20,928 nucleotides of DNA from a virus. The stretch is taken from the IMG/VR virus record IMGVR_UViG_3300027763_001142, positions 1 through 20,928 of that record, one strand, 5' to 3'. The notes below the pieces were generated by a model that saw only the letters and a program-made list of their open reading frames with translations, was not told where the DNA came from and did no database searches. Below, in pieces: positions 79-20,928 of the stretch (positions are counted from its first letter, which is position 1; each line of letters begins with the position of its first letter). The translations under genes were made by a program, and so were the position numbers.

Positions 79-91
79 AGGAGCAACTGAC
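79..91 (+). promoter_or_regulatory. Conserved extended ribosome-binding cassette (copy 1)
   Basis: AGGAGCAACT at 79-88 precedes the ATG at 92. AGGAG is a Shine-Dalgarno core. The following CAAC is shared with four other gene starts (1175, 2677, 3168, 12669) and is not needed for 16S pairing. Confidence 0.75.
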
Positions 92-1159
92 ATGGCCGCG
101 ATCAACTTCGGCAAGACGGTAACGCTTAAGCAAGCTGCGCAGATCATCCTGTCCACCCCCAAGAACCGGTACCTACTGCAAGGTGAGCCGGGTATCGGCA
201 AGTCATCCATCCTTGGGTACCTGTCTGCCGCCCTGCCTAATCACCTACCCGCGTACATTGACGTACCCAACATGGACCTTGGCGACATCGCCATGCCGGT
301 TATCGACCACGACAAGAAGGTCACACGTTACTACCCCAACAGCCGGTTCCGTTTGCAGGAGGGCAAGCCCGTCATCATGATGTATGACGAGTTTCCCAAG
401 GGTTCGCCGCCCATCCAGAACATGCTGCACCCCTCACTTGAGGTGCACTACCCGCGCCTTGGCGATATCCCTATTGACCCCACGTCCATCGTGTTCCTGA
501 CGGGTAACCTATCCAGTGACGGGGTGGGCGACAGTCTCAAGGCGCATACCCGTAACCGCATTATCCCTCTGACGGTATGCAAACCAGACGCAGACCAGTG
601 GATTGAGTGGGCGATGGACCACGACATTGAGCCGGTTGTCATGGCATGGGTTAAGCAGTTCCCTCATGCGCTGGCTAGCTATCTCGACGAGGGCCAGACG
701 GACAATCCATATATCTACAACCCCAAGAAGATGCAGACATCCTTCGTGTCGCCCCGGTCACTGGAGCGGGCTAGCTACATCGTGCGAGCCAGAGGCGAGA
801 TAGATCAGGACAGTCTTATCGCTGCCTTGTCTGGTGCTATTGGCGAAGCAGCAAGCCGGGATATGCAAGCCTATATCGCGTATCAGGATCAGCTGCCCAC
901 GTGGGAGAGCATCATGAAGTCGCCCAAGACTACCAGCGTGCCCGATAGCGCTGGCGCGTGCGCCGTCATGGTCTTTGGTGCGATAGCCAAGCTGGACAAG
1001 AACAACATCACTCCGTTCATGGAGTACGTGGAGCGCTTCGAGCCGGAGTGGCAAGCGGCCTTCTGTATCAACCTCGCTAAGAGCAAGACCAAGCAAGCCG
1101 TGGCGTTCAGCAGCAAGAAGTTCGCTGACTGGGTGCAGAAGAACGAGGACTTACTCTAA
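92..1159 (+). CDS. MoxR/CobS-like AAA+ ATPase
   Basis: A 355-residue AAA+ ATPase. Walker A is GEPGIGKS at residues 31-38, Walker B ends in the acidic pair MMYDE at 96-100, a sensor-1-like FLTGN lies at 135-139, and basic residues around 153-156 (TRNR) are candidate arginine fingers. MoxR/CobS-type ATPases act as hexameric chaperones paired with a VWA-domain partner, and that partner type is encoded 27 bases downstream. The start at 92 follows a strong AGGAGCAAC ribosome-binding site. Protein class is clear from the motifs. The phage substrate is unknown; remodelling of a host or replication complex is inference from better-studied pairs such as CobS/CobT, NorQ/NorD and RavA/ViaA. Confidence 0.88.
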   Translation: MAAINFGKTVTLKQAAQIILSTPKNRYLLQGEPGIGKSSILGYLSAALPNHLPAYIDVPNMDLGDIAMPVIDHDKKVTRYYPNSRFRLQEGKPVIMMYDEFPKGSPPIQNMLHPSLEVHYPRLGDIPIDPTSIVFLTGNLSSDGVGDSLKAHTRNRIIPLTVCKPDADQWIEWAMDHDIEPVVMAWVKQFPHALASYLDEGQTDNPYIYNPKKMQTSFVSPRSLERASYIVRARGEIDQDSLIAALSGAIGEAASRDMQAYIAYQDQLPTWESIMKSPKTTSVPDSAGACAVMVFGAIAKLDKNNITPFMEYVERFEPEWQAAFCINLAKSKTKQAVAFSSKKFADWVQKNEDLL

Positions 1160-1174
1160 CAAAACCTACCAACG

Positions 1175-1186
1175 AGGAGCAACCCG
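1175..1186 (+). promoter_or_regulatory. Conserved extended ribosome-binding cassette (copy 2)
   Basis: AGGAGCAAC at 1175-1183 lies 3 bases before the ATG at 1187 in the 27-base gap between the ATPase and VWA genes. It is preceded by CTAACAAAACCT, as in the first leader. Confidence 0.75.
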
Positions 1187-2410
1187 ATGGACAACGAAGT
1201 AACCGACAAAGAAGAGCGCAAGCTCAAGAGGGCTAAGATCAGCCTGATGCGTGAGCCCAAGTTCGCGCTGTGGTCTGGCATTATGATGATCGGCAAGACT
1301 GAGGTGGTGGACAACGAGCCTACCGCTTGCACTAACGGACGCGACGAGCGTTACGGACGCAAGTTCATTCAGTCCCTGACAGACAAGGAGCTGGCGTTCA
1401 TCGTGCTGCACGAGAACTTGCACAAGGCGTTTAAGCACCTGACCACGTGGCGCAAGCTATGGGAAGAAGATAGCGAGCTGACTAACTGGGCCTGTGACTA
1501 CGTTATCAACCTGATGCTGGTGAACATGGACCCGCAGGAGCAGTACATCTCGCCGCCGCGTAGGGATGGCAAGGTGTTCGTTCTTATCGACAGAGCCTTC
1601 GCAAACATGAACACCAAGCAGGTGTTCGATATACTCAAGCAGGAGAAGAAGGATGCTAAGAACGGCAAAGGTAATGGTGCTGGCCGTTGTTATTCTGATG
1701 GGGGCGGGGCTTTTGATCGTCACGATTGGGATGGTGCTAAGGAACTATCAGAAGAGGAGCGCAAAGAGCTTGAGCGCGAGATCGACCAAGGGCTTCGCCA
1801 AGGACTGATGGCCGCTAAGAAAGCCGGTCATGGGGCTGGTGACTTGGATCGTCTTGTTGGCGACATGCTTACGCCTACGGTGGACTGGCGCGAACAGATG
1901 CGGGAGTTCGTCAAGTCTATCTGCAATGCCAAGGACACTTCATCATGGCGCAGGGTCAACCGGCGCTTCCTGTCTGGCGATACGTATATGCCTACGCTAG
2001 TGGGCGAATGTGTCGGGCGTATCGTGGTGGGCGTTGATACGTCTGGTTCGATCAGTGGTGCCGATATCACGCGCTTCCTCAGTGAGGTCAAGGCTATCAC
2101 TGACGAGGTACATCCCGAGAAGATCGACCTGATGTACTGGGATGCTAGCGTGTCGGGGCATGAGGAGTACGACGAGGGCAACATGAGCACCCTTGTGGAG
2201 AGTACCAAGCCGCGAGGTGGTGGCGGCACTGATCCGCGTGCCGTTATGAACTACATCAATAACCGTAACATGCAGCCCGAGTGCATCGTGATGCTAACCG
2301 ATGGAGCGATAAGTGATTGGGGTACTGAATGGACTGCGCCAGTTCTTTGGGCAATCACCGGACGGGGTATCACTGCCCCAAATGGTAAGTCTATCCACGT
2401 TGAGAACTGA
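1187..2410 (+). CDS. VWA-domain protein with HExxH metallopeptidase-like N-terminus (CobT/DUF2201-like)
   Basis: A 407-residue two-part protein. The N-terminal part has HENLH at residues 75-79, an HExxH zinc-binding motif, followed by a conserved-looking WACDYVIN at 101-108 whose Asp104 could be a third ligand. This matches the metallopeptidase-like DUF2201 type. A charged linker (about 150-215) leads to a C-terminal von Willebrand A domain with a complete MIDAS: DTSGS at 284-288, Thr348 in GGGGTDP and Asp372 in LTDG. Such proteins are partners of MoxR/CobS-like ATPases, here the preceding gene. Peptidase activity is untested; many family members may use the fold only for binding. Its start has the same AGGAGCAAC cassette as the ATPase, suggesting coordinated translation. 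Confidence 0.85.
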   Translation: MDNEVTDKEERKLKRAKISLMREPKFALWSGIMMIGKTEVVDNEPTACTNGRDERYGRKFIQSLTDKELAFIVLHENLHKAFKHLTTWRKLWEEDSELTNWACDYVINLMLVNMDPQEQYISPPRRDGKVFVLIDRAFANMNTKQVFDILKQEKKDAKNGKGNGAGRCYSDGGGAFDRHDWDGAKELSEEERKELEREIDQGLRQGLMAAKKAGHGAGDLDRLVGDMLTPTVDWREQMREFVKSICNAKDTSSWRRVNRRFLSGDTYMPTLVGECVGRIVVGVDTSGSISGADITRFLSEVKAITDEVHPEKIDLMYWDASVSGHEEYDEGNMSTLVESTKPRGGGGTDPRAVMNYINNRNMQPECIVMLTDGAISDWGTEWTAPVLWAITGRGITAPNGKSIHVEN

Positions 2411-2414
2411 CCCG

Positions 2415-2657
2415 ATGGCTAGGGCAATCGTGAGGATAGGCTACAAAGATTATATTATGAATACGGCGGATGCGCTGCACATCCTAGACTTACTAAGCAA
2501 AGCAGAGCGGTACGAGACTACGTATGCGTCCGCTACGAAGAGTAAGACTTACCACGTGTATGATGTACCAATGGAAGACAAGACTGATAGCCTAGAAATA
2601 GTACATGACGACCTGTACCGCATGGCGAAGCTAGCGGGCAGACCAATCAAGGGATGA
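2415..2657 (+). CDS. Small unknown phage protein
   Basis: An 80-residue protein beginning MARAIVRIGYKDY. I do not recognise a family. The frame stays open further upstream to a start inside the VWA gene (2313), but the ATG at 2415, four bases after the VWA stop, gives a non-overlapping gene. The ribosome-binding site is weak (only GAG/GA-rich sequence upstream), so translation may depend on reinitiation after the VWA gene. It is rich in charged residues, has no signal peptide or membrane segment, and has a central predicted helix. Confidence 0.6.
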   Translation: MARAIVRIGYKDYIMNTADALHILDLLSKAERYETTYASATKSKTYHVYDVPMEDKTDSLEIVHDDLYRMAKLAGRPIKG

Positions 2658-2676
2658 CATTCGTCACCCTTAACCA

Positions 2677-2689
2677 AGGAGCAACTACA
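2677..2689 (+). promoter_or_regulatory. Conserved extended ribosome-binding cassette (copy 3)
   Basis: AGGAGCAACT at 2677-2686 precedes the ATG at 2690. It decides the start of the next gene: an upstream in-frame ATG at 2654 overlaps the previous stop (ATGA) but lacks this cassette. Confidence 0.7.
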
Positions 2690-3124
2690 ATGACTGTGAT
2701 TACTACAATCGAAGGCTTGCCTGTTATAAACGCGAAGAAGCCCCTCATGCTGAACATAACGCCGGAGGATATCAAAGCCGCGAGGAAACATTCGCCGGGT
2801 AACTGTGCAGTAGCTAAGGCGTGTAAGCGGGAATGGGAGGTCGAGGAGGTTCGCGTGCATCTCTCGCGTATCTACATCCGCCGCAACGAGAAGAACTGGA
2901 TTAGGTTCGCAACACCATCTCCGATGCGTAACGAGATCATTTCGTATGATCGGGGTGGTGAGTTCTTACCCTCGGTGTTTACCATCAAGCCTGTCTCTCC
3001 GTCTCAGCGCACGGGCAAGAGGCAGGGGACCAATACCGACAAGAACGACAAGAGCCGGACCCTTCGCAAGAAGCGCAAGGCGTACACTGTTGTTAAGGGT
3101 GTCCGTGTAGCGGCGCACAAGTAG
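2690..3124 (+). CDS. Unknown basic phage protein
   Basis: A 144-residue protein starting MTVITTIEGLPV. The start is set by the AGGAGCAAC cassette just upstream; the alternative ATG at 2654 would add 12 residues. The C-terminal third is strongly basic and low in complexity (many Lys/Arg from about residue 105), which could mean nucleic-acid binding. Two cysteines near residues 36 and 42 are not enough to argue for a metal site. No family recognised. It sits between the VWA gene and the DUF3150-like gene and shares their leader type, so co-regulation with the AAA+/VWA module is likely. Confidence 0.65.
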   Translation: MTVITTIEGLPVINAKKPLMLNITPEDIKAARKHSPGNCAVAKACKREWEVEEVRVHLSRIYIRRNEKNWIRFATPSPMRNEIISYDRGGEFLPSVFTIKPVSPSQRTGKRQGTNTDKNDKSRTLRKKRKAYTVVKGVRVAAHK

Positions 3125-3132
3125 GACCAACC

Positions 3133-3158
3133 GGGGGTACGGTATGCGCCGTACCCCC
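3133..3158 (+). promoter_or_regulatory. Strong intergenic hairpin (10-bp perfect stem)
   Basis: GGGGGTACGG at 3133-3142 pairs perfectly with CCGTACCCCC at 3149-3158 around a 6-base loop TATGCG. No U-run follows, so it is not a standard rho-independent terminator. It lies directly upstream of the CACTAACA plus AGGAGCAAC leader of the DUF3150-like gene and could be an RNA processing or stability element, or a partial attenuator. Confidence 0.65.
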
Positions 3159-3167
3159 ACACTAACA

Positions 3168-3180
3168 AGGAGCAACGACA
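3168..3180 (+). promoter_or_regulatory. Conserved extended ribosome-binding cassette (copy 4)
   Basis: AGGAGCAAC at 3168-3176 is followed by GACA and the ATG at 3181. The upstream bases CCACACTAACA resemble the complement of the 3' hairpin region at 17326-17350 more broadly than the cassette alone. Confidence 0.75.
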
Positions 3181-4047
3181 ATGAGCATCACATCATCTTC
3201 CGTGCTGACCGAGATGAACATCTCCGTCTGGACCGCTAACAAGGTAGACAAGGGCGCTACCGATAGCGTGACTAACAACGCCTACGCAGTTAAGGACGCT
3301 GCCCAAGTCCGCAAGAACCTTATGGCTGGTACTCACCAACGCAAGGCAATCTCTGACTACGCTGCTGCCTGTAGGAACTGGCACAGTACGCGCACGTTGC
3401 CGTGGGCGGACCGTGGTCCGAGACTTATGCCGACTAGCTTGTTCATGGAGTACAAGAAGGAAGCTAACCTGCGCCGGGAGACCTTCTTCAAAATGGTGGA
3501 CGAGTTCGTTCAGGACTACCCCGCTCTGGTGCAGACCGCGCATAACTACCTAGGCAACCTGTTCAACGCCGATGATTACCCCTCTGCCCTCGAAGTGTAC
3601 AGCAAGTTCGGGTTCCGTCTGGTGTTCTCACCGGTGCCCGAGAGCGGTGACTTCCGACTGGACCTGCCAGCGCAGGAGCTGGACGAGGTGAAGCGTGGCT
3701 ATGAGGATAGCTTCAAGGACCGCTTGGCCGATGCCATGAAGGAACCTTGGGACCGGCTGCACAAGGTGTTGCTCAACATCTCTGACAGGATGACTGACGA
3801 CGCTGGCGAAGACGGGACAGAAGCGCGTCGGTTTGCTTCCAACAATACGTTTATCACCAACGCGCAATCCCTGTGTGCTATGCTCACCCATCTCAACGTG
3901 ACCAATGATCCTAAGCTGGAAGCCGCACGCCGCCAGCTGGAGCAGACTATGGCTGGTGCGGACATTGAGACCATCAAGGAGAGCGCAACGGAACGTGCCG
4001 AGATCAAGGGCAAGGTTGACGCAATCCTTAATCAGTTCGAGTGGTAG
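3181..4047 (+). CDS. DUF3150-like protein
   Basis: A 288-residue, mainly helical and charged protein. Overall composition, length and position directly downstream of a CobS-like ATPase and a CobT-like VWA gene fit DUF3150-type proteins, which commonly accompany this pair in phages and plasmids. That assignment is from recollection of family context, not from a decisive motif. There is no signal peptide or membrane segment. The C-terminal part (about 215-280) is likely coiled helix. The start is supported by the AGGAGCAAC cassette. It is probably a third component of the AAA+/VWA module; function unknown. Confidence 0.75.
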   Translation: MSITSSSVLTEMNISVWTANKVDKGATDSVTNNAYAVKDAAQVRKNLMAGTHQRKAISDYAAACRNWHSTRTLPWADRGPRLMPTSLFMEYKKEANLRRETFFKMVDEFVQDYPALVQTAHNYLGNLFNADDYPSALEVYSKFGFRLVFSPVPESGDFRLDLPAQELDEVKRGYEDSFKDRLADAMKEPWDRLHKVLLNISDRMTDDAGEDGTEARRFASNNTFITNAQSLCAMLTHLNVTNDPKLEAARRQLEQTMAGADIETIKESATERAEIKGKVDAILNQFEW

Positions 4048-9043: not shown

Positions 9044-9471
9044 TACTATTCTGGACACAGGCCAAAGAGAAAATCCTTAAGGCGTTGTGGAGCAAAGGTT
9101 CTAGCGCTAGGGAGATTGGGGACAAAGTCGGGGCCACGCGAAACGCTGTTATTGGTAAGGCTAGGAGGCTTAACCTCGAAGCGAGAGTACCCGAAAGCTT
9201 CGTAACAAAGACTAAGAAAGCGCCAATTAAAAAGGTTGCTCCTCCGCCTCCTCCGCCGCCCCCTGCTACCCCGGGAGTAAAGTACTTACCTAGGGGGAGC
9301 GCTTCGGACGTGCTTATGTCTTTGTCCGCTGACAACTGCCGGTGGCCGGATGGTGATCCGGCGGGTTATGACTTTACCTTCTGTGCTGGTAAGAAGCAGG
9401 GTAGCTCTCCTTATTGCAAAATACATAGTGAGATAGCCTACCCACCCTTAACAGCAAGGAGAGGTAGATGA
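9040..9471 (+). CDS. gcrA: GcrA-family cell-cycle transcription regulator
   Basis: A 143-residue GcrA homologue. The N-terminal HTH region FWTQAKEKILKALWSKG (residues 4-20) then AREIGDKVGATRNAVIGKA is diagnostic. A Pro-rich linker with eight consecutive prolines (68-75) separates it from the C-terminal domain NCRWPDGDP (99-107), Cys115 and SPYCKIH (123-129), which in GcrA contacts the sigma70 subunit. In Caulobacter, GcrA activates sigma70 promoters carrying CcrM-methylated GANTC sites. A phage copy could redirect host cell-cycle transcription or stimulate phage promoters. Both domains look intact. The start overlaps the previous stop (ATGA). It is the strongest host clue in the window. Confidence 0.93.
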   Translation: MILFWTQAKEKILKALWSKGSSAREIGDKVGATRNAVIGKARRLNLEARVPESFVTKTKKAPIKKVAPPPPPPPPATPGVKYLPRGSASDVLMSLSADNCRWPDGDPAGYDFTFCAGKKQGSSPYCKIHSEIAYPPLTARRGR

Positions 9472-11253: not shown

Positions 11254-12635
11254 TGACCATACTCACTGACTACAAGTGGACGGGCAAGTTCAAACCATTT
11301 GCCCACCAGAAGGAAACGTCTGACTTCTTGTCCCGCCGCCGCAAGGCGTTCTGCTTCAACGAGCAGGGCACGGGTAAGACTGCATCCGTCATCTGGTCCG
11401 CCGACTACCTAATGAAGCTGGGCAAGATCAAGCGGGTGCTAGTCATCTGCCCCCTGTCCATCATGAAGTCGGCATGGCAGCAGGACATGTTCAAGTTCGC
11501 CATGCACCGCAGTTGTTCGGTGGCCCACGGGGATGCCAAGCAGCGCAAGAAGATCATCGCGGCTGGCTCGGAGTTTGTCGTTATCAACTTCGACGGGCTT
11601 GCCGTGGTCAAGGACGAGATCATCAAGGGTGGCTTCGACCTGATCGTGGTGGACGAGGCTAACGCCTACAAGAACCCCATGACCAACCGCTGGAAGGTGC
11701 TGCGCGACGTAGCCGCCGCAGCTAAGGGTCTATGGATGCTTACTGGTACGCCAGCAGCACAGTCGCCACTGGACGCCTACGGCCTAGCCAAGCTGGTAAA
11801 CCCGGACAATACGCCCAAGTACTACGGCCAGTTCCGGGATCAGGTTATGTACAAGGTCACCCAGTTCAAGTGGGTAGCCAAGCCGGGATCACAAGATACG
11901 GTACATCAGGTACTCCAGCCCGCTATCCGGTTCGAACGTGACCAGTGCCTAGACCTGCCGCCTGTCACTCACGTAGAGCGCGAAGCGCCGCTTACCCCCC
12001 AGCAGGCTAAGTACTACAAACTGCTTAAGGATAAGATGACTATGGTAGCCGATGGGGAGTCCGTTACCGCCGTCAACGCAGCTACCAACCTCAACAAGCT
12101 ACTCCAGATCAGCGGTGGTGCGGTCTACACGGATACAGGCGAAGTCGTTGAGTTCGACGTTAGCAACCGCCTGAACGCTGTCCTTGAGGTGATCGAGGAG
12201 TCTAGCCACAAGGTGTTGGTGTTCGTGCCCTTCACACACACTATAGAGCTGCTCAAGGCTACGCTCGACAAGCACGGCGTCAGCAACGACGTTATCAACG
12301 GCAAGGTCTCGGTAAACAAACGTAGCGACATAGTTACGCGGTTCCAAGAGAAGCCCGACCCCTACGTGCTTATCATCCAGCCACAAGCTGCATCCCACGG
12401 ATTGACGTTAACGGCGGCGAACACCATCATCTGGTATGCCCCAGTGACATCCGTTGAGACTTACTTGCAGGCAAACGCCCGCATCAACCGTCCGGGCCAG
12501 CACAACCCCATGACCATCGTACATATCAAGGGCAGCGAGATTGAAAGCCGCCTGTACAGCATGTTACAAAGCAACATCAACAACCACGAAAAGATAATCG
12601 ACCTTTACCACCAAGAACTCTCCGGTACCGCTTGA
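11253..12635 (+). CDS. SNF2-type superfamily 2 helicase/translocase
   Basis: A 460-residue SF2 ATPase. Q-like FKPFAHQ (13-19), Walker A NEQGTGKT (36-43), motif Ia ICPLSIMKSAW (65-75), Walker B DEAN (134-137), motif III TGTPA (164-168), and in the second RecA lobe QPQAASHGLTLTAAN (376-390) and motif VI QANARINRPGQ (406-416). It is a compact SNF2-like translocase of the kind common in phages. Its likely role is moving along dsDNA and remodelling replication or recombination intermediates; the adjacent RecB-like nuclease is a plausible partner. The stop codon lies inside the TTGACT element at 12632. Confidence 0.93.
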   Translation: MTILTDYKWTGKFKPFAHQKETSDFLSRRRKAFCFNEQGTGKTASVIWSADYLMKLGKIKRVLVICPLSIMKSAWQQDMFKFAMHRSCSVAHGDAKQRKKIIAAGSEFVVINFDGLAVVKDEIIKGGFDLIVVDEANAYKNPMTNRWKVLRDVAAAAKGLWMLTGTPAAQSPLDAYGLAKLVNPDNTPKYYGQFRDQVMYKVTQFKWVAKPGSQDTVHQVLQPAIRFERDQCLDLPPVTHVEREAPLTPQQAKYYKLLKDKMTMVADGESVTAVNAATNLNKLLQISGGAVYTDTGEVVEFDVSNRLNAVLEVIEESSHKVLVFVPFTHTIELLKATLDKHGVSNDVINGKVSVNKRSDIVTRFQEKPDPYVLIIQPQAASHGLTLTAANTIIWYAPVTSVETYLQANARINRPGQHNPMTIVHIKGSEIESRLYSMLQSNINNHEKIIDLYHQELSGTA

Positions 12636-12659
12636 CTATGTCAAATACATAGGTACGTT
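12632..12659 (+). promoter_or_regulatory. Possible promoter/operator before the coiled-coil protein gene
   Basis: TTGACT (12632-12637) lies 16 bases before TACGTT (12654-12659). The -35 is good, the -10 is poor (3 of 6). TTGAC-TAT-GTCAA at 12632-12644 is a perfect inverted repeat with a 3-base centre and matches the 5084 element at 11 of 13 positions, suggesting a shared operator. Confidence 0.4.
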
Positions 12660-12668
12660 AGGGTCAGA

Positions 12669-12678
12669 AGGAGCAACT
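12669..12678 (+). promoter_or_regulatory. Conserved extended ribosome-binding cassette (copy 5)
   Basis: AGGAGCAACT at 12669-12678 abuts the ATG at 12679, the shortest spacing of the five copies. Confidence 0.75.
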
Positions 12679-14286: not shown

Positions 14287-17130
14287 ATGTCTGGTTTCGA
14301 CCTACTCAACGCTGTCCAACCGGACAGTGGCTGGTTCGCTGTCCTCGGTATCAAGGGGAAAGGGGACGTACGCCAAAAGCTTGTGGCTACCCGTGAAGAG
14401 GTAGACCAGATAGCCGCCGACTATATGGCACAGGGTAGAAACGCCTTCTTTGGGGTTGCTAAATACGAGACAGACAAGGGCCGCACTAAGGATAACGTGA
14501 AGGCCATAAAGGCGTTCTGGCTAGATATCGACTGCGGGGAAAGCAAAGCCGAGGTTGATGAGAAGACTGGTAGACCCGACGGATACATAGACCAGCCTAC
14601 AGCACTAGGGGAACTAAAGCGGTTCTGTAAGCTAGTCGGTTTGCCCAAGCCTATCCTCGTTAACTCGGGCCGAGGTGTCCACGTGTACTGGGCGCTGACC
14701 GAGGAGGTTACCCGGGAACAATGGGAGCCTGCGGCTGACCGGCTACGGCAGCTCTGCAATACCCACGAGCTGTACGTTGATCCAGCAGTCTTCGAAGTGG
14801 CTCGCGTGCTGCGTATCCCCGGCACGTTGAACTTCAAGGACGACCCGGCGACAGAGGTAACTATCATAAATGAGGCCGCACCAGTCAATTTCGAGGCGTT
14901 TCGCAGCCTGCTAGGGGTCAAGGAGAAGCCCGTAGCGCCGCCCAAGCGGGAACTAAGTGAGCTTGCCAAGTCCCTGATGGACAACACTATATCGGTGTTT
15001 TCCAAGATCATGCGCCGCAGCGAAAAGGGCAACGGGTGCCAGCAGCTATGGGACTGCTACGAGAACCGGGCCACCTTGTCCGAGGTCCGCTGGTTTAACG
15101 CCCTGTCTGTAGCCAAGTTCTGTAGGGACAAAGACAAGGCCATCCACAAGATGTCCGAGGGTTACGACGACTACGATCCCGCAGCTACCGAGCAAAAGAT
15201 ACGGCACATAGGTGGCCCGCACAGCTGCAAGGAGTTTGAGAAGAACAACTCGGGTGGCTGCGATGGGTGTCCGTTTAAGGGCAAGATTAAGGGCCCCATC
15301 GTTCTGGGCAAGGAAGTCCTCGAAGCTACAGAGGAAGACAACGTAGTAACCGAGGAGCCCGAGGAAGAAGGTGCGGAAGCCACAGTACATAGAATACCCA
15401 AGTACCCGGACCCATATTTCCGGGGCCTGAACGGCGGCGTCTACTACATGCCACCCGGGGGCGAGAAAGAGGCTGAGCTTATCTATGCAGACGACATATA
15501 CGTCGTCTCACGGGTAAGGGACCCCAACGTAGGCGACGGTGTCGTCATCAAACTACATATGCCGAAAGAGGGTATCCGGGAGTTCACGGCGTCCAACGAC
15601 GACCTGTCAAGCAAGGACGAGCTACGCAGCATACTGTCTCTGAATGGCGTGATGTGCAAAACCAAACAGTTTAACAGGGTTATCGACTACATCGTCGATT
15701 CCTGCGCTGAAATTAGATACAAAGGGAAAATGAACGAGATGAGACTTCAATTCGGTTGGGCTGACAACGACAGCAAATTCATCATCGGTGACCGTGAGAT
15801 CAGCAAGGACGGTAGCTTCTATAGCCCGCCTTCCGGGACCACAAAGGCCATGGCCGACAAGATGCAGCCAAAGGGCACGCTGGAGAAGTGGCGGGATGTC
15901 TTTAACCTGTACGGCAAGCCCGGGCTAGAACCCCATGCGTTCGCAGCGCTGTCTGCCTTCGGCTCACCCCTGCTTAAGTTCACCGGCCAGAGCGGGGCCC
16001 TGCTCAACATCGTTCACCCTAGGTCGGGTACGGGCAAGACGACCATCCTGCATATGATTAACAGTGTATACGGCGACCCCCTGACGCTGTGTATGAACAA
16101 GGAAGATACGCATAACTCGCGTATGCAGATGATCGGCGTGCTTAGGCACCTTGCGCCAACCATCGACGAGATCACCAACATGCTGCCGCAGCAGATATCG
16201 GACCTTGCCTACGCCGTCCCGCAGGGTCGGGCCAAGGAGCGCATGAAGGGGTCAACAAACGAGCTTCGGCTTAACGCCACAATGTGGCAGTTGATGTTGG
16301 TCAGTAGCTCCAATTCGTCCCTGTATGAGAAGTTGTCGGCGCTTAAGGGCGCACCAGACGGCGAGATGATGCGTATCATGGAGTACAAGATCGACTACAC
16401 AACGGCGCTAGAGCAGTCCTACGCTAAGGAAATGTTCGACCACCAGCTGCTTAACAACTACGGGCACGCGGGGCCTATCTACGCCGACTACCTGATAAAG
16501 AACCGGGACGAGGTCATATCAGATGTCCTCAAAACCCAGAGTAACGTTGACCTTGAGCTTAAGATTACCCAGCGCGAGCGGTTTTGGTCGTCGGTAGTAG
16601 CGTGTAACCTTGCGAGTGGCCGCATCGCCAAGAGGCTTGGTCTGCTTGATTGGAACTTGAAGACCATCAGGGAGTTCTCTTACGACATGGTCAACGGGCT
16701 TCGTAATGAGGTCGTACCCCCGGTCAACAACCCTGTGGGGGTCGTCGGTGACTTCATGAACAGGCATTACCACAACATGCTAGCCATAAATGACGGCGTA
16801 GACTTGCGGTCTGGCCTTAACGTAGCGCCGAGGGTGGAGCCCAAGGGTGAGCTTATTATACGGTATGAGCCCGACACCAAGCGGATGTTCATCGTGTCCA
16901 AGGCGTTCAAGAACGACTGCGTGAAGTTCCAGATCAACTACCGAGACACTGTGAACGAGTTGCTAAAGATGGGCATCATCACCAAGCTCGACGATAAGCG
17001 CATGGGCAAGGGCACGAACCTTATGTCCACCAACGTGCACACGCTGATCTTCGATACCACGCACAAAGAGTTCTTGGACATGAACGCTTTCCTGCCCCCT
17101 GAGGTACCCGATGCTGGTGGAGAAGGTTAG
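14287..17130 (+). CDS. AEP-type primase fused to a DUF927-like helicase
   Basis: A 947-residue replication protein. The N-terminal archaeo-eukaryotic primase domain has FWLDID with Asp80 and Asp82, SGRGVHVYW with Ser127 and His132, Asp165 in LYVDPAVF and RVLRIPGTLN (173-182). A Cys cluster (C314, C325, C328 in CDGCPF) probably binds zinc. The C-terminal helicase has Walker A SGTGKT (580-585) and acidic IDE (626-628), like DUF927/SF3-type phage helicases. It would unwind and prime DNA for the family A polymerase, replacing a DnaG/DnaB pair. No clear Shine-Dalgarno precedes the ATG (ACCTCC... lies upstream), yet the N-terminus MSGFDLLNAVQPDSGWF matches this group, so initiation is odd. Confidence 0.92.
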   Translation: MSGFDLLNAVQPDSGWFAVLGIKGKGDVRQKLVATREEVDQIAADYMAQGRNAFFGVAKYETDKGRTKDNVKAIKAFWLDIDCGESKAEVDEKTGRPDGYIDQPTALGELKRFCKLVGLPKPILVNSGRGVHVYWALTEEVTREQWEPAADRLRQLCNTHELYVDPAVFEVARVLRIPGTLNFKDDPATEVTIINEAAPVNFEAFRSLLGVKEKPVAPPKRELSELAKSLMDNTISVFSKIMRRSEKGNGCQQLWDCYENRATLSEVRWFNALSVAKFCRDKDKAIHKMSEGYDDYDPAATEQKIRHIGGPHSCKEFEKNNSGGCDGCPFKGKIKGPIVLGKEVLEATEEDNVVTEEPEEEGAEATVHRIPKYPDPYFRGLNGGVYYMPPGGEKEAELIYADDIYVVSRVRDPNVGDGVVIKLHMPKEGIREFTASNDDLSSKDELRSILSLNGVMCKTKQFNRVIDYIVDSCAEIRYKGKMNEMRLQFGWADNDSKFIIGDREISKDGSFYSPPSGTTKAMADKMQPKGTLEKWRDVFNLYGKPGLEPHAFAALSAFGSPLLKFTGQSGALLNIVHPRSGTGKTTILHMINSVYGDPLTLCMNKEDTHNSRMQMIGVLRHLAPTIDEITNMLPQQISDLAYAVPQGRAKERMKGSTNELRLNATMWQLMLVSSSNSSLYEKLSALKGAPDGEMMRIMEYKIDYTTALEQSYAKEMFDHQLLNNYGHAGPIYADYLIKNRDEVISDVLKTQSNVDLELKITQRERFWSSVVACNLASGRIAKRLGLLDWNLKTIREFSYDMVNGLRNEVVPPVNNPVGVVGDFMNRHYHNMLAINDGVDLRSGLNVAPRVEPKGELIIRYEPDTKRMFIVSKAFKNDCVKFQINYRDTVNELLKMGIITKLDDKRMGKGTNLMSTNVHTLIFDTTHKEFLDMNAFLPPEVPDAGGEG

Positions 17131-17305
17131 CTACGACATCAACTGGAAGGCGTTTAAGCGGGGGTACTCGTTCTTTATACCTTGCCTAGACCCCGTGCGT
17201 GCCAAGCAGGAGATACTTCGTACCACAAAAAGGTTCAAAATCCCTGTGGTTACGAAGGTGGTTATCATAGAGGGCATAAGAGGCTTGCGGGTCTGGCACA
17301 CGTGA
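17111..17305 (+). CDS. Small basic phage protein
   Basis: A 64-residue protein overlapping the end of the primase-helicase by 20 bases in another frame. It starts MLVEKVSYDINWKAFKRGYS, contains SFFIPCLDP and ends VVIIEGIRGLRVWHT. The regular alternation of strand and helix and the compact length suggest a real conserved protein (an alpha/beta miniprotein), but no family is known to me. It is the last gene before the + strand terminator. Confidence 0.65.
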   Translation: MLVEKVSYDINWKAFKRGYSFFIPCLDPVRAKQEILRTTKRFKIPVVTKVVIIEGIRGLRVWHT

Positions 17306-17313
17306 GTTAACTT
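17285..17313 (+). promoter_or_regulatory. Weak possible promoter for a 3'-end small RNA
   Basis: TTGCGG (17285-17290), 17-base spacer, TAACTT (17308-17313). Each box matches consensus at only 3 of 6. It is noted because transcription would begin about 17320, at the base of the hairpin whose loop is antisense to the phage leaders, giving an RNA of about 70 nt ending at the terminator. Confidence 0.2.
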
Positions 17314-17318
17314 TACCC

Positions 17319-17390
17319 CGAGAGAGTTGCTCCTCTCGTTAGTTGGTGTGGTCTAACTGGCCCTCGTCGGGAAACTGACGGGGGTCTTTT
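17319..17390 (+). ncRNA. Candidate antisense small RNA (3'UTR-derived or independent)
   Basis: Hairpin: CGAGAG (17319-17324), loop AGTTGCTC (17325-17332), CTCTCG (17333-17338). GTTGCTCCT (17326-17334) is the exact complement of the AGGAGCAAC cassette used at five + strand starts. With the loop A it is complementary over 10 bases to the copies at 79, 2677 and 12669. Downstream, GTTAGTTGGTGTGG (17338-17351) is partly complementary to the CCACAC and CTAAC boxes of the leaders. The hairpin is followed by a rho-independent terminator, so seed loop plus terminator resembles a bacterial sRNA. It could also be an inverted remnant of a leader. Expression is unproven. Confidence 0.4.
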
Positions 17391-17394
17391 TATT
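17361..17394 (+). terminator. Rho-independent terminator of the + strand block
   Basis: CCCTCGTC (17361-17368) pairs with GACGGGGG (17377-17384), 8 bp with one G-T, around the loop GGGAAACT, followed by TCTTTTTATT. The T-run overlaps the stop codon of the convergent gene (17390-17392). On the opposite strand no T-run follows, so termination is one-way. Confidence 0.85.
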
Positions 17395-20300: not shown

Positions 20301-20928
20301 GAATCCGGCATAAATTTAAGGAGTACTTCGAGCGAAGGTAGGCTGAAGGCGTTTAGTTTGTCCTTAAGCGCCGCGATAAAGGCAGAGGCGTCGTGTTCCT
20401 TTATGGCTGTGCCAACTGCCGCCGTACCTTGGGTAGCATTGAACCCGCGCCGGAACTTTTGAGCGTTAACAGAAAGTTTTTCCTCAACCTCAACAGGGGT
20501 ACTTGGTTTACCTGCGCTTTCTGAAGCAGTAGCAGCAGCAAACAACGGTAGTTCTTCGGGACCTTTAACCGGCGCAACTTCAGGGGCCGCTCCGGGGGTC
20601 GTTCCAAGTGTCGCTCCGGGGGCCGCTTCCGTCTCTGGTACTTCTAGACCAGCGTTTCGCAGAGCTTCTTGGTATTCAGCGTCGATCCCGGGCTTATTCT
20701 GCTGGTACGCATAACCAGATATGGCGCGTTCTGCATCGGCTTGGGCCTTGGCTTCAACCTGTGCTTCCTTAGCGGAAAGTGGAGCGGGGGCAGCGGCGGG
20801 GGCGGCGATAGGAGCAGCGGGAGCGGCGGGGGTAGGAGCAGCGGGAGCGGCTGGAATAGGAGCAGCGGGAGCAGCGGCGATAGGAGCAGCGGGAGCGGCT
20901 GGAATAGGAGCAGCGGGGGTAGGAGCAG
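17390..20928 (-). CDS. Large virion-type/polyvalent protein, 5' end outside window
   Basis: The frame is open from the window edge to the TAA at 17392-17390: 1178 codons seen, start beyond the window. In protein order: an Ala/Pro-rich repeat N-terminus (20926 to about 20780); a linker with a tetrapeptide-like Ala/Pro/Gly series; long charged helices (about 20400-19700); a hydrophobic stretch with NFIWFLSSARSALTNMTS (about 19080-19010); a second with LLGVLAMAAVFGGATGLPLY (about 18365-18300), the best membrane-spanning candidate; and a Tyr/Pro-rich then helical C-terminus with LGFTPEAISRQQ. The second hydrophobic region and C-terminus resemble large LPD38/PLxRFG-type phage proteins, often virion-internal and injected with DNA. 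Family assignment is from memory. Internal TTG/ATG codons are not likely starts. Confidence 0.85.
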   Translation of the reverse strand, partial: APTPAAPIPAAPAAPIAAAPAAPIPAAPAAPTPAAPAAPIAAPAAAPAPLSAKEAQVEAKAQADAERAISGYAYQQNKPGIDAEYQEALRNAGLEVPETEAAPGATLGTTPGAAPEVAPVKGPEELPLFAAATASESAGKPSTPVEVEEKLSVNAQKFRRGFNATQGTAAVGTAIKEHDASAFIAALKDKLNAFSLPSLEVLLKFMPDSVVADIAGSVNKQFGITLRRIKTEVDALSAKRANLTEAFNKIGKSAEKFVHKYGNAALSKMQVLARLNRIDVTAHDNVGEALKNDSVMQGYVRLLANTNIPGEIKNLKEGRAKREAHIKEAYAAWDELGKQENGQREYIRLRQFYKDMYALRRTLLDRAVDAIPGLDANTRTSMKESLKAQYEKARSAEDPEYNNIVRETVPEEYSPFMRFGEYWFRVKTGGVNGEPEFYKFDSAAERNHYKRVIAGELGVEPDDGNVFESGHGDTANERGEFVGSDGALAATFDIIDKSNLGDAQKESLKDTFYQARLEALPDSSIRKRFMHAKNRTGFSTDPIRIFGATAEAYANELSKLEHVDRIDRAIEMASELLKTGGMKDDATKQRLDVLLKRMVSSAKENVNPPVGNRLASALNTMNFIWFLSSARSALTNMTSIPMRVMPTLWSRYGFIKGNVKFLQYLAAFDALQIKESDEDGDVMLTMPSLKKAGRVKNNPRRSAALREAVLRRVVAQTEVATVTGRTKTPTNLSSKATKRLQQTVYDAATSMFGATEAMSREMSFLMWYDLAYDKFRKTMSEKDAHAAAIDEAAEGTFDKLGDYRATERPPVFKHPVGRSIFMFKMFSAVQTKFFVKAILMSTRGLDPELKIEARKELLGVLAMAAVFGGATGLPLYSVVNSIIDLALDQFEDDEDKRKRRELNPYLANNADARFRYQYLPSHFGDITVPTLGGKQSSLARILEIGPISALSGFNFAPSTSYNGMWFREGLPGDTWVETAKNFLLANLGPTVSLGTNIDLAAKDWNNGDILRGVERVMPGFLKGPIMGERVVTEGLETSKGSQVVAPEDIDTISKIAAFLGFTPEAISRQQNMRFEAIKQIQRANTEKARAIALMNVAMATDDSDKAVAAGKAIEKYNTRYPGEEFQIDDETLDNSYEAFLKKRDSEIDGVPIEDDYLDDLEWYIAGGPIAEPTKPFKQ
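20811..20928. repeat. 24-bp tandem repeats coding for Ala/Pro octapeptides
   Basis: On the + strand, units starting GGAGCAGCGGGAGC lie at 20811-20834, 20835-20858, 20859-20882 and 20883-20906, then a shortened 15-base unit (20907-20921) and a partial one to the edge. The second and fourth units are identical. Read on the - strand each codes an octapeptide of AAPAAP plus IP, IA or TP. Length is a multiple of three, so copy-number change keeps the frame. The array continues past the window. Confidence 0.9.

Follow-up and report, generated by a model that had tools for sequence, protein, structure and literature searches.

The c4 antisense RNA of phages P1 and P7 blocks translation of a phage mRNA by pairing around its ribosome-binding site through bases that sit in RNA loops, and the sar RNA of P22 and the OOP RNA of lambda are further phage antisense RNAs that act on phage mRNAs (PMC12197685). 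How does the present locus compare with these systems? We analyzed an entire uncultured virus record of 20,928 bases (hereafter, the window), in which a small element, composed of a seed hairpin, a linker and an intrinsic terminator, is located between a 64-aa ORF and a convergent gene on the minus strand that encodes a DarB-like protein. Like c4, the element is phage-encoded, carries complementary bases in RNA loops, and is predicted to pair with ribosome-binding sites. However, c4 is directed at a single target (ant) and functions in prophage immunity, whereas the element lies at the 3′ end of a replication operon and has several dispersed targets; unlike c4, it also has its own terminator, seeds that covary among lineages and, in some lineages, a second seed. 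By definition, a c4 RNA is encoded together with the antirepressor mRNA ant and acts against it; an element that lies 3′ of the primase operon and matches Gam-like, AAA+, VWA and other early leaders does not fit. The sar and OOP RNAs are encoded opposite their targets with full complementarity, whereas the element is encoded elsewhere and uses short seeds; with the element and all its targets in separate places on the + strand, it is not a cis-encoded antisense RNA of this kind either.

DicF is a short phage-encoded RNA that blocks translation by pairing, as we propose for the element, but its targets are host mRNAs, whereas the targets recognised here are the phage's own early genes and are supported by coevolution. 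Silverman et al. (2025, Mol Cell 85:4678) reportedly described a trans-acting phage sRNA, likewise a short phage-encoded base-pairing RNA. The alphaproteobacterial RNAs of the cuckoo/CcsR type, which are bacterial, present anti-Shine-Dalgarno bases in hairpin loops of fixed, C/U-rich sequence. The element likewise shows anti-Shine-Dalgarno bases in a hairpin loop, but this loop joins CUCC to several target-specific bases, and these covary with the phage's leaders; because the loops vary, the element does not belong to that group.

A base-pairing regulatory RNA is expected to be a conserved intergenic structure ending in a terminator and to have a covariation-supported seed for ribosome-binding sites, and the element meets both demands. 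It resembles a trans-acting repressor sRNA in its working, is a member of no named family tested, and represents a new family of phage-encoded base-pairing RNA without an Rfam match (at the gathering score, neither the window nor five relatives matched any Rfam 15 family). It is already known that phage antisense RNAs can be directed at ribosome-binding sites and that trans-acting phage sRNAs can act on host mRNAs. The literature, consulted in open access only, described neither this RNA family nor a phage early-gene regulon with covarying seed and target, and such an absence is weak evidence. In our view, the element is very probably a regulatory RNA that the phage encodes and that works by base-pairing; its likeliest role is translational repression of early and replication genes, although its accumulation, the repression and the timing are inferred.

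The element and its complementary leaders in the window

The initial annotation of this DNA had described the 9-mer GTTGCTCCT as the reverse complement of a cassette preceding five + strand genes, and a site scan confirmed this. The cassette, AGGAGCAAC, was found seven times against 0.15 expected by chance, a number reached by none of 100 shuffles: five copies are on the + strand (Table 1) and two on the minus strand, at 17326 in the hairpin and at 9235. Each of the five + strand copies immediately precedes the ATG of an open frame, with the start of the third gene corrected from 2654 to 2690. The copy at 9235 was set aside; it is probably a chance occurrence, because it lies within a coding region. 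Eight bases of the 9-mer had been placed in the loop of a 6-bp hairpin; the hairpin is as described, but seven of the nine bases are in the loop and two (CT) in the 3′ arm of the stem. The loop A lies outside the 9-mer; at leaders 79 and 12669 it nevertheless adds a tenth matching base.

Table 1. Positions of the element, its target sites and the genes discussed in the text
Feature	Position	Strand	Remarks
Seed hairpin, CGAGAG-AGTTGCTC-CTCTCG	17319-17338	+	6-bp stem, 8-nt loop
Antisense 9-mer GTTGCTCCT	17326-17334	+	Exact antisense of AGGAGCAAC
Linker	17339-17358	+	Small stem possible (GTTAG..CTAAC); position of second seed in divergent lineages
Intrinsic terminator	17359-17391	+	12-bp stem (17359-17386) and T5
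Possible RNA promoter	17284-17318	+	Position of TATACT-like -10 in relatives; weak in window copy
Target site before AAA+ ATPase gene	79-87	+	
Target site before DUF2201/VWA-like gene	1175-1183	+	10-nt match GAGGAGCAAC
Target site before ORF 2690-3124	2677-2685	+	
Target site before gene 3181-4047	3168-3176	+	
Target site AGGAGCAAC	12669-12677	+	Ribosome-binding site of Gam-like gene
AAA+ ATPase gene	92-1159	+	
DUF2201/VWA-like gene	1187-2410	+	
ORF of 144 aa	2690-3124	+	
Gene of 288 aa	3181-4047	+	
DNA polymerase gene	start 5427	+	
Exonuclease gene	start 10286	+	
SNF2 helicase gene	start 11253	+	
Gam-like gene, 141 aa	12679-13104	+	Most conserved target; PF07352 in relatives
Gene 13114		+	Between Gam-like gene and primase/helicase
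Primase/helicase gene	14287-17130	+	Last large gene of operon; anchor for searches of relatives; PHROGs primase/helicase
Conserved 64-aa ORF	17111-17305	+	Immediately 5′ of element

Two further features that had been claimed downstream of the hairpin, a rho-independent terminator and additional leader-complementary bases, were both recovered: the terminator has the form given in Table 1, and GTTAGTTGG (17338-17346), in the linker, exactly complements CCAACTAAC at 36-44, 5′ of the AAA+ gene. These two stretches may form a second contact in the window's lineage, and another possible second contact, CCAACC against GGTTGG, was seen in the L002/L089 phage. The 75-nt RNA folded at -36 kcal/mol (z -4.1), and none of 200 shuffles was equally stable. 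The duplex energies of individual leaders in the window were only mildly beyond those of shuffles, and their ranking is weakly informative next to the evolutionary test given below.

Several palindromic sequences were observed near the leaders. Perfect or near-perfect palindromes lie just 5′ of two target sites, at 58-73 (CCTGATACGTATCAGG) and 3133-3158 (GGGGGTACGGTATGCGCCGTACCCCC), and L089 carries CGTGGGAATTCCCACG at the equivalent place; these might be leader hairpins or operators. A near-palindrome at 12631-12644, TTGACT-A-TGTCAA, overlaps the stop codon of the helicase gene and doubles as a -35-like sequence. At the equivalent place, relatives have TTGACAnnGTCAA followed by a -10-like hexamer, possibly the promoter and operator of the Gam-like gene.

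Some of the gene labels remain uncertain. PF07352 matched seven of ten members of the Gam-like family, with the window copy under the Pfam cut-off, and a PDB profile search with the family gave nothing significant. PHROGs labels this family 'minor head protein', against Mu Gam or Pam3 gp33-like in Pfam; because the neighbours are replication genes, the PHROGs label is doubtful. The 64-aa ORF had no match in a comparison with Pfam and PHROGs, and the label DUF3150, given earlier to the gene at 3181, found no confirmation in Pfam.

Conservation among relatives and covariation of loop and leader

Primase-anchored searches yielded 202 loci with a primase and a Gam-like gene, corresponding to 118 distinct versions, of which 102 were readable for the leader and the downstream region and 85 had a CTCC-bearing body. 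In relatives down to about 51% primase identity, the sequence directly after the 64-aa ORF contains a hairpin whose loop has CUCC on its 3′ side, and a terminator comes next; nearly all carriers of the element have a terminator at this place. The loops observed were UUGCUC, UUUGCUC, UUAGCUC, AAUCGCUC, CUAGCUC and UUGACU. The stems show compensation among versions (GGAAG/CTTCC, GAGAG/CTCTC, GCAAG/CTTGC and GTAAG/CTTAC); in 73 hairpins the five inner pairs were canonical throughout, the fourth being GC, AT, CG, TA or GU. Because the hairpins were selected for at least four pairs, it is this variation alone that counts as evidence. When a viral collection was scanned for GGAAGTTWGCTCCTTCC, the element was present, among the matches listed, in 69 of 76 additional loci: 67 of these had a recognised 64-aa ORF or primase upstream, the remaining two (L310 and L362) were truncated and of the same form, and the other seven of the 76 were a single unrelated sequence family.

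A nucleotide search with the 3′ block matched no cultured phage, and a protein search of cultured phages gave distant primases only (at most 29% identity). The anti-leader hairpin is missing from two phages with such primases, Pseudomonas phage Rollin and Rhizobium phage RHph_TM3_14A, and so the searches yielded no cultured representative. Genome contigs contained just partial, distant primases (28-38%) in Methylophaga, Sideroxydans, Rhodospirillales, Rhodobacterales and Methylophilaceae, and no host could be assigned.

Within the same phage, loop and Gam-like leader correspond to each other, as in the pairs GTTGCTCC/GGAGCAAC, GTTTGCTCC/GGAGCAAAC, GTTTTGCTCC/GGAGCAAAAC, GTCGCTCC/GGAGCGAC, ATCGCTCC/GGAGCGAT, CTAGCTCC/GGAGCTAG, TTAGCTCC/GGAGCTAA and GTTGACTCC/GGAGTCAAC, and the length of the loop (TT, TTT or TTTT) is mirrored in the leader (CAAC, CAAAC or CAAAAC). 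Loop classes were based on the hairpin; classing by the last CTCC in the body had proved noisy. In 62 of 85 versions, the complement of the own loop was identical to the Gam-like leader over four bases; 20,000 permutations reached 25 at most. In 16 phylogenetically disjoint pairs that differed in the loop, the own leader fitted better ten times, worse never and equally well six times (p=0.001); disjoint pairs picked by leader differences alone gave 8:1 with seven ties, a weaker result because leaders also drift alone. The longest complementary run averaged 9.87 with the own leader and 7.68 with swapped leaders. For genomes G001-G014, the loops were recorded before the genomes were scanned. The loops of G012 and G009/G014 then had an exact match in the Gam-like leader, and every + strand match in G002 and G004 (10 and 8, respectively) was a ribosome-binding site; a full-length loop match was absent from G003, G005 and G007. 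The initial annotation had proposed, as a check, that related phages should conserve the loop and covary it with the leader cassette, and the outcome (62/85; disjoint pairs 10:0) is strongly positive. It had also named loss of the loop with the cassette kept as grounds for refutation; this was met in L004, a single version that lost the hairpin and kept the leader, against the 62 exact agreements.

Might the complementarity nevertheless be a matter of chance or a relic, an ordinary terminator hairpin that holds an inverted leader cassette and has no role in pairing? The Shine-Dalgarno core alone ensures some complementarity, with a mean run of still 5.6 nt in leaders shuffled with GGAG kept, and the group L025-L031 retains only the terminator. 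However, such shuffling with GGAG fixed reduced runs of at least 9 nt from 86% to 2%, so the core cannot explain the complementarity; loop and leader change jointly outside the core in many lineages, and the stem changes are compensatory. The inverted relic that had been offered earlier as an alternative is excluded by the loop-leader covariation, and we find a functionless origin in general scarcely credible.

Pairing of loop and leader is thus supported by evolution, on the evidence of sequence comparison, but repression as against activation is not thereby shown. The RNA might activate or protect the leaders, or the leaders might act as a sponge for the RNA, with the true output elsewhere (e.g., a host mRNA or sRNA); evolution reveals pairing and not its sign, and the linker GTTAGTTGG pairs with the leader region 36-44 as well. 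On the other hand, the paired stretch always takes in the Shine-Dalgarno core, a few bases from the start codon. In known sRNA biology, pairing over this core near the start codon leads to repression. We regard activation or a sponge as very unlikely, and the joint change of loop and site as strong evidence, albeit from genomes alone, that the virus regulates these genes by RNA, most likely by shutting them off.

Genes carrying the address, second seeds and exceptions

Which genes carry the address recognised by the loop? The comparison of own with swapped leaders gave z values of 15 for the Gam-like gene, 5.7 for AAA+, 3.3 for 3181 and 3.0 for 1187, and the own RNA thus fits the leaders of the four targets named at the outset (AAA+ at 92, VWA at 1187, 3181 and 12679) better than swapped ones. 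Values were marginal for the primase (2.2), helicase (2.2) and polymerase (1.9) and near zero or below for 10286 (0.1), 5119 (0.4), 8261 (0.7) and 13114 (-2.9). These gene-wise values ignore tree structure; only the Gam-like gene has the added disjoint-pair test. In phages like L048, L058 and L061, the Gam-like leader has drifted and the match is retained by a 519-aa frame further upstream, probably the helicase, judging by position and length. In most genomes, the own suffix was top or joint top among the + strand GGAG ribosome-binding sites; it was nearly absent from the minus strand, and the ribosome-binding sites of structural genes were almost without the motif. The minus strand of G001 codes for terminase, portal, head, tail-fibre and ejection proteins.

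The window's own lineage uses a single seed for all five leaders. In divergent lineages, a second seed was found: where there are two hairpins, the linker complements the AAA+ leader over 11 nt, both in G006/G011/G013 (TTGTTTCTCCT to AGGAGAAACAA) and in G005 (TGCTTTTCCTT to AAGGAAAAGCA), and in G009/G014 GTTACCTCTAA pairs with the AAA+ leader TTAGAGGTAAC and over 10 nt with the 3181-type leader. Further contigs have second seeds of 10 nt for AAA+ (G022), 9 nt for the 1187-type leader (G024) and 12 nt for the 3181-type leader (G015); G017 has 6 nt only at the AAA+ leader, and the G027 contig is cut there.

Other departures besides L004 were observed. L025-L028, L030 and L031 have lost the seed hairpin and kept the terminator and a TATACT-like hexamer; their Gam-like leader, GAAGGAGATTAAA, has diverged too, an apparent co-loss. 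Seven versions (L044, L047, L052, L065, L087, L088 and L292) are without the element and have unrelated leaders. In G003, the loop TTT faces CAAC leaders and is one base longer; in L202/L203, CAAA stands against CTAA with no match past the core; and L275 and L034 each fit the other's leader better than their own. These exceptions indicate that the coupling of loop and leader can decay.

Proposed source and working of the RNA

Of 85 versions, 47 had a hexamer with at least five of six bases of TATAAT at or just past the stop codon of the 64-aa ORF; five control windows gave 0-10 of 85. TATACT was the commonest such -10-like hexamer before the hairpin and predicts a start near the hairpin base; the -35 is poor, with codons constraining part of it, and a consensus promoter scan before the hairpin of the window copy found none. 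A separate transcript is likely for the group of relatives as a whole, although inferred from sequence alone.

We considered that the element might instead be a cis-acting 3′ UTR, in which the hairpin at the mRNA end would fold back about 4.7 kb onto the Gam-like leader, without a free sRNA, and limit translation or set the stability of the same transcript. Element and Gam-like gene do share one + strand block, the Gam-like leader is the best conserved partner, and the window copy has no evident promoter of its own. Against this, many relatives conserve the -10-like hexamer immediately 5′ of the hairpin, a separate promoter-like sequence likewise precedes the Gam-like gene in many, and several targets lie far upstream (79-3176); dispersed multiple targets, such as the ten in G002, suit action in trans better. 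We therefore judge the cis-acting 3′ UTR unlikely and retain the base-pairing sRNA as the preferred reading.

In such an sRNA model, the 3′ end of the replication operon would give rise to an RNA of about 70-75 nt that stops at the intrinsic terminator; in most relatives a small promoter of its own would probably drive it, the other possibility being that it is the tail of the operon transcript. The exposed loop would bind the phage's own early and replication mRNAs at the Shine-Dalgarno region. The Gam-like gene is the predicted partner in almost every lineage; the genes for the AAA+ ATPase, VWA-like, 3181-type and helicase proteins and small early genes would be further partners that vary with the lineage. 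Pairing would hide the ribosome-binding site and block ribosome loading, so that less early protein would be made once transcription reached the end of the replication block, whereas structural genes, having no address, would be spared. The repression, timing and partners are inferences from established sRNA biology, as are the effect on translation and any need for a chaperone. We speculate that a late limit on the Gam-like DNA-end protein could free DNA ends for packaging or recombination.

A bolder reading, which we hold tentatively and to which we give somewhat less than an even chance, is that one sRNA is the master riboregulator of apparently lytic phages, silencing their own early genes through a lineage-specific address shared by loop and ribosome-binding site, and that it is bispecific in divergent lineages. 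If so, one seed of the bispecific RNA would serve the Gam-like gene and another the AAA+/VWA early block, and, with addresses varying from one relative to the next, each phage would keep a private switch in a co-infection. Temporal control in lytic phages is usually ascribed to transcription factors and polymerases; the present case, if true, would be a post-transcriptional early-gene shut-off made by RNA and recognised through the coupled evolution of seed and target in uncultured phages. The natural loop/leader series (CAAC, CAAAC, CAAAAC, CGAC, CTAG, CTAA and TCAA) could serve directly to test pairing rules and orthogonality, the second seed illustrates how a regulatory RNA can gain a separate specificity, and other viral genomes may likewise hold regulatory addresses in ribosome-binding sites shared by their early genes.

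Two minor observations concern the surrounding coding regions. A short tandem repeat at 20810-20914, with five copies of AGGAGCAGC at 24-base spacing, lies within the DarB-like coding region on the minus strand. According to the genome search, the primase of the two phages G002 and G004 (also L043 and L069) has one in-frame TGA inside the matched stretch.
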